Below, one piece after another: positions 2,019-21,317 of a stretch of DNA of 23,920 nucleotides (within the stretch, counting starts at the first letter, position 1; each line of letters starts with the position of its first letter). Source of the DNA: a virus; IMG/VR virus record IMGVR_UViG_3300036852_000164, positions 1 to 23,920 of that record; one strand, given 5' to 3'. A program made the position numbers and the translations under genes. Under the pieces are notes generated by a model. That model did no database searches and was not told where the DNA came from. It saw only the letters and a list, made by a program, of their open reading frames with translations.

Positions 2019-2315
2019 ATGGAACGCAACGAGGTATCACGCCATGAGGTCGAGGTCATCCGAGTCCTGACAAGTCATCAAGGCCAATGGCTGACCAACC
2101 AGCAGATCCGCGATGCAGCGACCGACGTCGCGCCCCGAACCGTCCGAGCAACGACGCTCAAGCTCGTCCGCCTCGGCCTACTGGATCAGGCAGAGGTCTT
2201 CCCGGCGCACCGCTACCGCCTGTCAGGGTTCGCCGCCAAGCGGAACCGTGGCTACTGGGACAGGGTCCAGCAGGCGGCCGAGGTCTTCGGCGTCAAGCTG
2301 GGCAACTCAGCCTGA
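2019..2315 (+). CDS. Winged helix-turn-helix protein, the only plus-strand gene
   Basis: A 98-residue protein. Residues about 10-70 have winged-helix character: a first helix (EVEVIRVLTS), a helix-turn-helix (LTNQQIRDAA then APRTVRATTLKLVRLGLL) and a short wing (AEVFPAHRYRLS), as in MarR-like and related small regulators. The C-terminal 25 residues are helical and basic. It is transcribed against everything else in the window, diverges from the methyltransferase and converges on the double-domain glycosyltransferase, with the two 3' ends overlapping by nine bases (2307-2315). Its local base composition appears less GC-rich than its neighbours, which suggests separate acquisition. It probably represses its own promoter and the leftward sugar cassette. 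A non-regulatory DNA-binding role cannot be excluded. Confidence 0.7.
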   Translation: MERNEVSRHEVEVIRVLTSHQGQWLTNQQIRDAATDVAPRTVRATTLKLVRLGLLDQAEVFPAHRYRLSGFAAKRNRGYWDRVQQAAEVFGVKLGNSA

Positions 2316-3806
2316 CCCAGCATCATCACCTGCATGCGCCCGAAGACGTTCCTCGAATAGTTTGCGGTCCTCCTCAAAACTGGACTGGCCGAGTTTATGG
2401 ACCTCGTCCAATTCGGCCTTCTGCCAAAATGGATGGAGATGTTCCACGCGGCTCGCGAGCGCAGGAGTCCAGGTGCCACGCTGTTTCGCGGCCGTCACCA
2501 GCTCATCATCGACGAAATTGTGCTGATAACCCTCATGGCAAACAATACCCGGCCCATCCCAGCTCGCCCCGACCTGATCCACATATAAGCGGCGAACCAA
2601 TGGATGCGGTGAATGCTCGCCGGCCATCACCCGCGGATTCCCCAAATCATTCGTCCCGACGACCGAGAACCGGTCGCCCTCGGCGGCGGCGAGGGCGTGG
2701 TCCCACCAGCCCGGATGGAAGCGGACGTCGGAGCCTGTCAGCAGCAGCCACGGCTCGCTGGTGACCCGGTAGCCCTCGTTCACCTTCTCCGCGAAGGTGC
2801 CCGGCCGGTCATCGGCAGGGTCCAGCGGCAGCAGCACGGTCGCGCCGGCCTGCTTCCATGCCGTCGCCGCGTCTTCGTCGCCCCGGTCGCAGATGGCGTA
2901 CGCGCGGGCCAGACCGGTGCTCGCGCGCAAGCTCGCCATGAACGGCGCGGCGTGCTCGGGGCGTCCAAGGACCGGGACCAGGACCGCGACCTCCTCCGTG
3001 GCCGGCGCCGGCACGCCCAGCGCGAGGTAATCGTGCTCGGCCAGCCACACCCGCTTCGCATGCGTCGTCCGCACCCCAGTGTGGACGTAGACGGGGACGC
3101 CGACGGCGGTCGCCCGCATGCAGAACGACAGGTCCTCCCCCATCGACCCCTCACGGGCCGGCACCCGGTGATACCACTCCGGGCCGTACTTGGCTTGGAT
3201 CCGCTCGAACACCGAGCGATGGACCAGGATCGCCGCCGACCCGGTCGCGTCGCAGCGGACCAGCGCGTTCTGCGGGTAGCCCCAGCGGATATCGAAGCCC
3301 TCCAGCTCCTGGCCGTCCACGGTCGTGACTGGCGCCCAGTCGTAGACGGTCGGGACCGGCATCGTGTGATAACCACCCATCCCGTCGGGGCCGAGCTGCC
3401 GCGACCCGAAGCACAACGCCCCCACGACCGGCCGCTCCGTCGGGTCCGCGGCGGCCATCAGCTGCTCGAGCAGGTCCGGCTGGAAGCCCATGTCGGTGTC
3501 CAGCCACAAAAGCCACGGCGCGTCACCAGCCAGGAAGTCGCGGACGGCCTTGTTGCGCCCGGCGACCAGCTGGCCGGAGTTGCACTCCATCGAGATCAGC
3601 CCGCCGCGGCGGATCCGCTGGTGCGTGCCGAGGTCGGCGAGGAACAACTGCCACCAGGAGTGGTGCCACGAATAGGCGACGTCGTCTGTATGCAAATAGG
3701 CCACAGTGACCGCGTCGGGAAGCGGCTCGGCCTGGACGAGCTTGGTGGCCTGCTCCGGAGTGATGCCCTCGGTCAGCAGCGTCTGGACTGTCGCGGTCTC
3801 AGCCAT
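2307..3806 (-). CDS. Double-domain GT-A glycosyltransferase
   Basis: A 499-residue protein with two consecutive GT-A-like domains. The first (about 30-255) has LLWLDTDMGF with the metal-binding DTD at 103-105, and GEDLSFC at 223-229, the acidic pair expected near the acceptor site. The second (about 272-480) restarts with VAVLVPVLGRPEHAAPF and has LLLTGSDVRFHPGWW, where GSD (358-360) takes the DxD position, then FVDDEL (431-436). No signal peptide or membrane helix is seen, so it should act in the cytoplasm. It lies three small genes downstream of the capsid gene. Glycosylation of virion proteins is known in mycobacteriophages, so a capsid or tail acceptor is a reasonable inference; DNA, lipid or host-surface acceptors remain possible. 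The last 80 codons look lower in GC than the rest. The ATG start overlaps the preceding gene by eight bases. Confidence 0.85.
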   Translation of the reverse strand: MAETATVQTLLTEGITPEQATKLVQAEPLPDAVTVAYLHTDDVAYSWHHSWWQLFLADLGTHQRIRRGGLISMECNSGQLVAGRNKAVRDFLAGDAPWLLWLDTDMGFQPDLLEQLMAAADPTERPVVGALCFGSRQLGPDGMGGYHTMPVPTVYDWAPVTTVDGQELEGFDIRWGYPQNALVRCDATGSAAILVHRSVFERIQAKYGPEWYHRVPAREGSMGEDLSFCMRATAVGVPVYVHTGVRTTHAKRVWLAEHDYLALGVPAPATEEVAVLVPVLGRPEHAAPFMASLRASTGLARAYAICDRGDEDAATAWKQAGATVLLPLDPADDRPGTFAEKVNEGYRVTSEPWLLLTGSDVRFHPGWWDHALAAAEGDRFSVVGTNDLGNPRVMAGEHSPHPLVRRLYVDQVGASWDGPGIVCHEGYQHNFVDDELVTAAKQRGTWTPALASRVEHLHPFWQKAELDEVHKLGQSSFEEDRKLFEERLRAHAGDDAGSG

Positions 3807-14529: not shown

Positions 14530-14770
14530 TCAGCAGACCCATCCGGCGGGGTCGATCGTGCTGGCTTCGGCGGCGTCGGGGTAGCGGACGCGGCCGGCTG
14601 CGAGCGCGTCGGCGCGGGTGGGGGCGGGGCCACCCATGGCGAGCGGTGTGCGCCCGGCGAGCAGGGAGTAGGCCTGCCAGTACCATTGGCCGGTGAGGGG
14701 GCCCTGCCAGGTGATGAGGCGGACAGTGGGCGTAGGCGGCGAGGTGGGCTCCCAGCTCGGCGTAGGTCAC
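14530..14770 (-). pseudogene. Small gene split by a +1 frame change
   Basis: The GTG at 14770 overlaps the MT-A70 stop (GTGA) and opens with a plausible helix, TYAELGAHLAAYAHCP. After about 14725 that frame becomes Arg/Pro-rich noise, while the +1 frame, which has no start codon, gives convincing protein: VRLITWQGPLTGQWYWQAYS, then RTPLAMGGPAPTRADALAAG and a stop at 14530. The 241-base span is one base over a multiple of three, as expected for one inserted base. Joined, it would be an intact protein of about 79 residues. A sequencing or assembly error, a true null mutation and a programmed shift are all possible. Function unknown. Confidence 0.5.
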
Positions 14771-15537
14771 GAAGCGGCGCCTTCGTAGCCCCAGCCCCAG
14801 GAATCCCAGCCGAGGCGGGGCTGCCGGGCGAACAGCTCGACATAGGGTTCAGGGCTTACCTGCTCGACCACGTCAAGGAACGCAGCAGGCTTGACCGAAT
14901 GCGGGCCACGCGGCCACTGCCACCAAGTCGTGTCCACACGGTTCGCGTCGGCCGCAAGATCCGCCTGGTCGGCAAGCCCTGGGAGTACGTCGCGGAGCCG
15001 TCGCCAGTCCTCGGCGGTCGGGTAGGACAGGTCGGCTTCCCAGTTCGACACAGCACCGCCGTGGTTGACCTTGCCGTACGCACCGACGGCAGCACAGACG
15101 GCCTTGGTGCTCAGTCCTGCCGCTTGACGGGCGACCTTGATGAGGGCACCTACAGGGCGGCGGCAGAACAGAATGAATTCGGTGGTGTTGGTGAACGCGC
15201 CACCCTGGCCGAGGCCCATGGGCTCCTTGCACCATGTCAGGACCTTGCCGACCCGCCAGCCCCAACCCTCCGCGATGCGCTTGGCCTCCCACAGGTGACG
15301 CTGCGTCGTCCACAAGTACAGGTGCGCGCCGGGCTGGGCGAGCGCGGCCACCGGGAGGGCGACAATCTCCCCGAGCGACATCAGCGAATAGGACCATGGC
15401 CGGGACCATCCCTGGTCGCCCCGTGAGGTTGGCCCGAACGGTGGCCGGTCGCCCTCATACGGCCACGGCGGGTCGGCCACGATCGTGGCGTAGGGCGGCA
15501 AGAGTCCTTCCCAGCTCATACCAGGGTAGGGCGTCAT
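14767..15537 (-). CDS. MT-A70 adenine methyltransferase with embedded HTH domain
   Basis: A 256-residue protein. DPPWPY (22-27) is the DPPW catalytic motif of MT-A70 enzymes, which methylate adenine N6; AHLYLWTTQRHL and VGKVLTWCKEPMGLGQGG are the next conserved blocks, and PYVELFARQPRLGWDSWGWG is the C-terminal block that contributes to SAM binding. Between them, residues about 132-185 (IKVARQAAGLSTKAVCAAVG, then AVSNWEADLSYPTAEDW) look like an XRE-type helix-turn-helix. Most MT-A70 proteins are shorter there. It may give the enzyme its own site selection or let it regulate genes. Start ATG overlaps the upstream stop (ATGA). Likely role: modifying phage DNA against host restriction. Confidence 0.88.
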   Translation of the reverse strand: MTPYPGMSWEGLLPPYATIVADPPWPYEGDRPPFGPTSRGDQGWSRPWSYSLMSLGEIVALPVAALAQPGAHLYLWTTQRHLWEAKRIAEGWGWRVGKVLTWCKEPMGLGQGGAFTNTTEFILFCRRPVGALIKVARQAAGLSTKAVCAAVGAYGKVNHGGAVSNWEADLSYPTAEDWRRLRDVLPGLADQADLAADANRVDTTWWQWPRGPHSVKPAAFLDVVEQVSPEPYVELFARQPRLGWDSWGWGYEGAAS

Positions 15538-20139: not shown

Positions 20140-20225
20140 GGAAGGCCTGCCCCACCCGGCGGACGACCGCGCAGGCCAAGGAACGAAGGCCTGCGCGGTC
20201 GTCCGCCGGGTGGGGCAGGCCTTCC
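20140..20225. repeat. Perfect 38-bp inverted repeat, 10-base loop
   Basis: The left arm (20140-20177) and right arm (20188-20225) are exact reverse complements over all 38 bases, with a 10-base spacer (AAGGAACGAA). It fills most of the 136-base gap between the cytosine methyltransferase stop (20238) and the next start (20101). As RNA from either strand it would form an extremely stable hairpin. There is no flanking T-run. Far longer than a normal terminator; see findings. Confidence 0.95.
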
Positions 20226-20237
20226 GTTCTTGTCTGG

Positions 20238-21317
20238 TCATGCGGTGGCCTCCATGCGCCGCCAGAGCAGTTCGAGGGCGAGGGCGCCCTGCTGGGGCAC
20301 GACGGCATTGCCAAGGGCGGTCACCCGCTGGACGCGGTTGGGGAGGCTCTTGGCGATGACCGTGCGAGGCGGCTCCCACGGGTACTGCGCGGCGCCCTGC
20401 GGGGCCGGCCAGCGGTGGCCGTCCAGCCCTCGGGGAAGCCCATCAGGCCCTCCACCCATGCCGGGTTCAGGCAACTCCCCGCCATGTCCGGCAGCTGGGC
20501 GCCCCTGGCCTGCTGCTTGGCCGTCCGCTCGCCGTGGTGGTCGCGGGCCATCGGCGTCGGCCAGAGGGTGACCGCCTGGGGCAGCGACGGCGTGCCCGTG
20601 CCGTGGCGGGCACTCGGGCCACCCTTCGCGCCGTCCGTGGACAGCGACGTCGGCCAGAGCCTGACCACCGCCATCAGTCCGTAGCCGCTCGGTGTGCCGA
20701 TGTCCGGCCGGTTGTAGAGCCCCGAGACCGTTGGGGTCGGCCAGCGGGCCGCGCCCGTCAGGGTCGGGTTCCCGCTGCCGTAGGTCGCGCTGGTCCGCTC
20801 CGAGTCGGCCGCCGTGGGCGTAGGCCAGGATGAAGACCCGTGCCCGTTCGTGCGGGGCGCCAGCGTCGGATGCGCGGACGCAGACCCATTCCGCATTGAA
20901 CCCGAGCGTGGCCAGGTCACCAAGGATCGCCTCGACAGGTGCCGGCCGGTATCGCCCGTCATCTCGCCAAGGGGAAAGGAGCCCTGCCGGGGCCTCCACG
21001 AACGCGTAGCGAGGTCGTAGTCCGCGAAGGAACCGAGCCATCTCGGGCCAGAGCCAGCGGTCATCGTTGGTCACCTTCCGTTTCCCGGCGGTGGAGAACG
21101 GCTGGCACGGCGGCCCGCCGAAGACAAGGTTGACGGGTTCGAGCACGGCCGGGTCGAGGGCCTTGATGTCGCCGTGGCGCGGCGTGGCGGGCCAGTGCCG
21201 CTCGAGGACGGCCGTGCAGTACGGGTCCACCTCAACCTGCCAAGCGACCTCGAAGCCGTGCGCTTCGACGGCGAGGTCCAATCCGCCCACGCCACTGAAG
21301 AGGCTGCCGGCCTTCAC
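20238..21317 (-). CDS. C5-cytosine DNA methyltransferase
   Basis: A 359-residue protein. LFSGVGGLDLA (6-16) is SAM motif I, GGPPCQPFS (67-75) is the catalytic loop with Cys71, FVEAPAGLL (106-114) is at motif VI, where most enzymes read ENV, GAPHERARVF (153-162) is motif VIII, and LGNAVVPQ (335-342) is motif X. The region between VIII and X, where target recognition lies, has four repeats of the form LADxxG and looks low in complexity. It methylates cytosine at an unknown site, probably to protect phage DNA. Start is GTG 21317. No cognate restriction enzyme is visible. The same DNA has a second long open frame (separate entry). Confidence 0.9.
   Translation of the reverse strand: MKAGSLFSGVGGLDLAVEAHGFEVAWQVEVDPYCTAVLERHWPATPRHGDIKALDPAVLEPVNLVFGGPPCQPFSTAGKRKVTNDDRWLWPEMARFLRGLRPRYAFVEAPAGLLSPWRDDGRYRPAPVEAILGDLATLGFNAEWVCVRASDAGAPHERARVFILAYAHGGRLGADQRDLRQREPDPDGRGPLADPNGLGALQPAGHRHTERLRTDGGGQALADVAVHGRREGWPECPPRHGHAVAAPGGHPLADADGPRPPRRADGQAAGQGRPAAGHGGELPEPGMGGGPDGLPRGLDGHRWPAPQGAAQYPWEPPRTVIAKSLPNRVQRVTALGNAVVPQQGALALELLWRRMEATA
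20321..21064 (-). CDS. Overlapping frame with WPTP repeats inside the cytosine methyltransferase gene
   Basis: A 247-codon ORF on the same strand, entirely inside the C5 methyltransferase gene but in another frame. It reads LGSFADYDLATRSWRPRQGS, LVTWPRSGSMRNGSASAHPT, then WPTPTAADS, WPTPTVSG, WPTSLSTDG and WPTPMARDH, and LNPAWVEGLMGFPEGWT. I recall phage proteins with repeated WPTP motifs and LNP..V.WLMG.P.GWT, sometimes annotated as methyltransferase companions. Starts at ATG 21064, with no evident ribosome site. The methyltransferase frame is clearly real at both ends, so this is either genuine overprinting or a recurrent frame shadow. Confidence 0.35.
   Translation of the reverse strand: MTAGSGPRWLGSFADYDLATRSWRPRQGSFPLGEMTGDTGRHLSRRSLVTWPRSGSMRNGSASAHPTLAPRTNGHGSSSWPTPTAADSERTSATYGSGNPTLTGAARWPTPTVSGLYNRPDIGTPSGYGLMAVVRLWPTSLSTDGAKGGPSARHGTGTPSLPQAVTLWPTPMARDHHGERTAKQQARGAQLPDMAGSCLNPAWVEGLMGFPEGWTATAGRPRRAPRSTRGSRLARSSPRASPTASSG

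Follow-up and report, generated by a model that had tools for sequence, protein, structure and literature searches.

A DNA cytosine-C5 methyltransferase, very probably of two polypeptides, encoded in overlapping reading frames of a viral genome

Phage methyltransferases of the DNA cytosine-C5 type commonly protect phage DNA from restriction. In M.EcoHK31I, the coding sequence of the beta subunit is nested in that of the alpha subunit in another reading frame, and the same has been reported for M.EaeI. Here we describe a locus in positions 1 to 23,920 of the IMG/VR virus record IMGVR_UViG_3300036852_000164 (the window; 23.9 kb, with a guanine-cytosine (GC) content of 72%), in which a C5 methyltransferase gene, called alpha below, overlaps a second open frame, called beta. 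Among the described systems, M.EcoHK31I (YGGCCR) has motifs I to VIII and X in the larger subunit and motif IX in the smaller one, and its target-recognition domain has been placed in the larger subunit (PMC3404938). In M.AquI, two polypeptides constitute one C5 methyltransferase, and both motifs IX and X belong to the smaller subunit (PMC3404938). Beyond M.EcoHK31I and M.AquI, the literature searched, which was mostly open-licence papers, contained no account of the alpha/beta family as a two-frame enzyme.

The locus very probably encodes a two-polypeptide DNA cytosine-C5 methyltransferase in two overlapping frames, similar to M.EcoHK31I, with beta contributing target recognition and motif IX. 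This reading is based on the distribution of motifs over the frames, the conservation of both frames, the pattern of selection, family-wide start signals and natural fused homologues. The likeness to M.EcoHK31I lies in the motif distribution: the larger chain carries motifs I to VIII and X, and the smaller chain carries motif IX. The difference is that the selection data here put target recognition in the smaller chain, and the middle of alpha is unconstrained. As in M.AquI, two chains would form one C5 methyltransferase with motif IX in the smaller one; unlike in M.AquI, motif X lies in alpha, so that the window does not have the AquI-type arrangement, which is seen in five relatives. The features of the locus are as follows.

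20238 to 21317, minus strand: alpha open reading frame (ORF), C5 methyltransferase catalytic subunit; 359 amino acids, GTG start; Pfam PF00145 matches residues 1-169 (E-value 7e-34).
20321 to 21064, minus strand: beta ORF, putative target-recognition region and motif IX; 247 amino acids, ATG start, +1 relative to alpha.
21065 to 21084, minus strand: candidate site for ribosome binding ahead of beta, ggAAGG, some 9 nucleotides before the ATG; weak in the window.
21270 to 21299, minus strand: alpha motif I, FSGVGGLDLA, S-adenosylmethionine (AdoMet) binding; G11, G12 and A16 are invariant in the alpha alignment (A2).
21093 to 21119, minus strand: alpha motif IV, GGPPCQPFS, with the catalytic Cys71.
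20973 to 20999, minus strand: alpha motif VI, VEAPAGLLS, with EAP where ENV is usual; inside the first 80 codons of beta.
20832 to 20861, minus strand: alpha motif VIII, GAPHERARVF; inside the first 80 codons of beta.
20420 to 20827, minus strand: beta-coded central region (probable target recognition, and motif IX); alpha reads through it as a linker free of stops and of constraint on sequence.
20816 to 20827, minus strand: beta WPTP repeat 1; alpha reads LAYAHGG.
20732 to 20743, minus strand: beta WPTP repeat 2; alpha reads LADPNG.
20645 to 20656, minus strand: beta repeat 3, WPTS; alpha reads LADVAVHG.
20552 to 20563, minus strand: beta WPTP repeat 4; alpha reads LADADG.
20420 to 20470, minus strand: beta motif IX, LNPAWVEGLMGFPEGWT; same pattern as RKLHPRECARVMGYPDSYK of M.HhaI, near-invariant in 77 betas.
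20364 to 20411, minus strand: alpha conserved segment ahead of motif X, WPAPQGAAQYPWEPPR; alpha matches residues 365-402 of a single-chain homologue (P0001) here.
20292 to 20339, minus strand: alpha motif X, NRVQRVTALGNAVVPQ; straddles the end of beta.

The PF00145 match (E-value 7e-36 in a further profile search) and motifs I, IV (with PCQ), VI and VIII of a C5 methyltransferase are all found in alpha, which is also matched by phrog_363 (E-value 1.5e-63). Motifs IX and X are present only when alpha and beta are taken together: alpha has motifs I to VIII and X, and motif IX is found in beta only. The beta sequence LNPxWVExLMGFPxGWT, overlooked in a first-pass annotation of this DNA, is methyltransferase motif IX, an identity by which the frames would each encode a portion of a single enzyme. 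Compared with M.HhaI and M.HaeIII, the alpha-type catalytic domain matches M.HhaI and motif IX of beta follows the M.HhaI pattern; those enzymes differ in having a single frame and another target-recognition domain.

The first-pass annotation had reported two overlapping frames with a second one of 247 codons, and both frames are indeed open. It had counted four WPTP repeats and stated that they coincide with LADxxG repeats of the methyltransferase frame. The repeats are spaced by 28-31 amino acids; three are exact WPTP and one is WPTS; the second to fourth fall on LAD sequences, but the first does not. The alpha-frame LADx is a shifted reading of TGGCCNACN, and the LADxxG repeats of alpha are shadows of the WPTP of beta. 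The suspicion that beta represents a family arising as a frame shadow therefore has the direction reversed. Methyltransferase motifs had been placed before and after the overlap; this holds for motifs I and IV, which precede it, but motifs VI, VIII and X overlap beta itself. The proposed overprinting of a target-recognition region is real as overprinting, with the correction that the region is carried by the second frame and not by the methyltransferase frame.

The two-frame arrangement recurs among relatives. In total, 273 loci with alpha were gathered from searches with alpha, beta and a single-chain homologue. Motif IX lies in the +1 frame in 230 of the 243 loci having a recognizable motif IX, which is not an unbiased frequency, as many loci were found via beta itself. 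The alpha-only search, in which loci were not chosen for beta, gives a fairer though small set, and motif IX is in +1 in 21 of its 24 loci. Motif X is back in frame 0 in 208 of the 230 loci with motif IX in +1, and alpha is open up to motif X in 204 of these 208. Of the WPTP-like motifs in this class, 519 occupy the +1 frame and two the third frame, and frame 0 has none. The matches of second-frame searches come from Paenibacillus, Acinetobacter, cyanobacterial and actinobacterial phages; a search of plasmids yielded five relatives only.

The two-frame form is also present in phages and contigs with a GC content of 42-50%. Both ORFs bear a methyltransferase annotation in Paenibacillus phage Bloom (44% GC), Acinetobacter phage ABMM1 (42% GC) has 298 beta-frame codons within alpha, and the longest overlap, in L028 (45% GC), reaches 418 codons. 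At most loci below 50% GC, alpha is usually open in fewer than 1/100 draws of synonymous recodings, often fewer than 1/1000, when beta is fixed, and the whole beta frame is usually open in fewer than 1/100 draws when alpha is fixed. On the tree of the catalytic part of alpha, the two-frame form is spread throughout, in hosts that the records assign to more than 10 phyla; several of these records are metagenome bins. On this tree, two changes are required for the single-frame forms and four for the AquI-like forms.

The openness of beta in the window alone is not remarkable because 27% of synonymous recodings (alpha amino acids fixed, codons redrawn from the usage of the window) leave beta open at 72% GC. 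When beta is fixed, 8% of recodings leave alpha open. The case for overprinting is accordingly one of comparison with relatives, not of openness in the window. Compared with each of 78 relatives, the beta-frame centre of the window scores higher than every shuffle (mean score 131 vs. 45), whereas the alpha-frame centre scores like the shuffles (46.6 vs. 46.7).

Selection on each frame was estimated at the family level. Divergence by codon position was measured in 24 close pairs and is given here for alpha codon positions 1/2/3, where beta codon position 3 corresponds to alpha codon position 1. Ahead of beta, it was 0.124/0.052/0.400; where beta overlaps the catalytic part of alpha, 0.106/0.046/0.189; in the central region, 0.298/0.163/0.143; and past motif IX, 0.117/0.099/0.259. 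The fastest position switches from alpha position 3 to beta position 3 and back, and therefore the coding signal moves into beta for the centre and returns to alpha past motif IX. The first-pass annotation had named, as an outcome against overprinting, synonymous-only constraint in the methyltransferase frame together with frequent stops in the second frame of relatives. The opposite was found on both counts: the centre evolves fastest at position 3 of beta, and the second frame carries motif IX in nearly all loci.

For omega, changes were classed by their effect in both frames in 71 close pairs forming 12 clusters; the pairs are related, and the bootstrap resampled clusters to allow for kinship. 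In the centre, omega of beta was 0.28 (0.21-0.36) or 0.22 (0.14-0.35), and omega of alpha was 1.04 (0.90-1.20) or 0.81 (0.59-1.24). Changes that are synonymous in beta and make a stop in alpha occurred there at 0.12 (0.04-0.23) of the rate of the others, an approximately eightfold avoidance. The omega of alpha near 1 and the avoidance of stops indicate that the middle of alpha is kept open but not in sequence. In the N-terminal overlap, both frames are constrained (omega 0.22 and 0.13 for alpha; 0.55 and 0.33 for beta). The +1 frame upstream of beta, used as a control, is unconstrained, with omega 1.49 and 0.79. Purifying selection on the second frame that is not due to the first frame is observed in this family.

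Homologues with a single chain indicate where beta belongs. In L152, a Pelosinus assembly of 43% GC, one frame contains motifs I to VIII, three WPTP repeats, LNPDWVECLMGFPIGWTD and motif X. The single-chain form is not a single assembly error because a viral contig, L195, also has it; L195 is 70% identical to the single chain of L152 (P0001). Beta of the window aligns to residues 206-351 of P0001 (E-value 1e-13), and alpha aligns to residues 2-188 as well as to the 365-402 segment listed above. The beta profile matches P0001 with an E-value of 8e-26, and beta from a two-frame Paenibacillus locus (L134) is 52% identical to its beta-like region. Since single chains carry the beta sequence there, beta is the piece missing between motifs VIII and X, at the target-recognition position. 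The WPT[P/S] region is probably the target-recognition domain, from its place between motifs VIII and IX.

Beta of the window matches phrog_1008 in PHROGs (E-value 7.5e-25), as do all 77 betas tested. This entry is named 'DNA methyltransferase' and does not mention an overlapping subunit; beta of the window matches its positions 61-288 and the tail of alpha its positions 296-320. No Pfam or NCBIfam model covering beta was found, and beta has no HNH match in Pfam, PHROGs or NCBIfam. The out-of-frame HNH insert called the ShiLan domain is comparable as a second meaningful frame within a phage methylase gene. The difference is that only some relatives have the ShiLan domain, an inserted mobile HNH endonuclease, whereas beta is no HNH protein and is the usual condition in its family.

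Start signals for beta are in excess across the family. Near the opening of beta, 38 of 71 distinct loci have a start codon accompanied by a Shine-Dalgarno match of five bases, compared with 7.7 expected when the alpha amino acids are fixed. In relatives from Acinetobacter and Pseudomonas (L003 at 1224-1231; L116, L121, L130, L143 and others), beta opens about 4 nucleotides after the alpha start. In these relatives, ribosomes may start in both frames from a single Shine-Dalgarno site.

In the proposed mechanism, alpha and beta would be translated separately from one message. Alpha would supply the AdoMet-binding and catalytic motifs I to VIII and the C-terminal motif X. Beta would start inside alpha just past motif IV, in the +1 frame, and supply motif IX together with the WPT[P/S] repeats. 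Both polypeptides would assemble into one enzyme, with beta filling the gap that alpha leaves between motifs VIII and X. Along this stretch, alpha would be read as a connector, stop-free so that the ribosome reaches motif X. What we infer from the sequences is that this phage produces both polypeptides, that these form a complex whose WPT[P/S] region touches the DNA, and that the resulting enzyme is active.

Four other explanations were considered. The second frame could be open and conserved merely through alpha conservation and GC-rich DNA, with no beta protein. The share of recodings that leave beta open in the window fits this idea, and the motif VI region of alpha dictates some N-terminal letters of beta. 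It is refuted at the family level by a centre constrained in beta and not in alpha; moreover, the second frame is kept in phages of 42-50% GC, Shine-Dalgarno sites and starts for beta are in excess, and single-chain homologues encode the beta sequence in frame. Such a shadow is scarcely credible, the least probable of the four. The locus might instead be a dead gene, a single-chain methyltransferase whose middle was put out of frame by insertions and deletions. Frame switching is known in this family, as the changes on the tree show, and the EAP motif VI of the window is unusual. Against decay stand the purifying selection on beta and on the N-terminal part of alpha, the avoidance of stops in both frames and a phase shared by 230 of 243 loci from many host phyla, so that it is given very little credence.

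Beta might also be an independent overprinted protein, e.g., an anti-restriction or regulatory factor, that shares only the locus with alpha. Its own start and its absence from Pfam and NCBIfam families would agree with this. In the fused homologues, the beta part belongs to a single chain and is flanked there by motifs VIII and X, beta carries the motif IX that alpha lacks, and AquI-like relatives join beta to motif X; an independent function has only a slim chance of being correct. The most plausible of the four, and still quite unlikely, is programmed frameshifting, by which the ribosome would shift from alpha to the WPTP frame and back, yielding one chain with motifs I to VIII, the target-recognition domain, IX and X. 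This is exactly the order in the natural single-chain versions. Frameshifting would require a +1 shift plus a return shift, and the stop avoidance in the centre of alpha would be needless for a shifted product. Beta also reaches far upstream of the junction and has its own start signals.

Several observations weigh against a two-polypeptide enzyme with target recognition in beta. The ribosome-binding site of beta in the window is weak, and EAP in motif VI of alpha is unusual; by a rough pattern count, motif VI with EA also occurs in a minority of relatives. The nearest relative of the window, L054, is just 62% identical in the N-terminal part of alpha, and the codon-position divergence of the window from its own nearest relatives is 0.38/0.28/0.39, saturated because they are too distant. 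The assignment of the target-recognition domain is based on position. The AlphaFold model of beta alone has a mean predicted local distance difference test (pLDDT) score of 59.5 with no confident target-recognition fold, and that of the single-chain L152 is below 50 in the target-recognition region. The catalytic domain is the sole part recognized from the models. A PDB profile search with beta gave nothing meaningful (best E-value 0.36), and the WPTP region has no PDB sequence match.

It is reasonably likely that the two-polypeptide reading extends to a large, ancient class of C5 methyltransferases from phages and prophages, in hosts of more than 10 bacterial phyla. In this class, the second frame would hold the target-recognition domain, and the catalytic chain would read through it as a meaningless, stop-free linker of approximately 60-300 residues. 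The arrangement recurs in hundreds of relatives and has been overlooked by standard protein-family databases. If the class is real, many enzymes in databases have a wrong target-recognition annotation and lack a subunit. For many phage cytosine methyltransferases, cloning or annotation would have dealt with a single gene though two products are needed, and prediction of specificity from the annotated chain would use a stretch without amino-acid constraint. It would also be a rare, replicated case of overlapping genes, with hundreds of natural sequences, in which one frame is selected for what it encodes and the other only has to stay open.

Some relatives distribute the motifs differently. In five AquI-like loci (L119, L129, L203, L251 and L265), alpha ends early and beta bears motifs IX and X. 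The actinophage 'single-frame' group includes hybrids (L007, L002, L010 and L055) with LPTP repeats in +1 and motif IX in the methyltransferase frame, some of which have extra in-frame repeats. These hybrids look like frame switching in progress.

Genes for capsid, portal and terminase proteins lie on the minus strand of the window. A glycosyltransferase family 2 ORF (2307-3806, minus strand) adjoins the structural genes and is perhaps involved in surface or DNA decoration. A second DNA methyltransferase, of the MT-A70-type adenine class (PF05063, E-value 1e-14), is encoded at 14767-15537 on the minus strand, in an ORF that continues into a helix-turn-helix stretch. Just past the alpha stop, at 20140-20225, is a perfect 38-bp inverted repeat with a 10-nucleotide loop (-102.5 kcal/mol, z -13). 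It has no long T-run, hence it is not a classic terminator, and it is present as one copy in the window.
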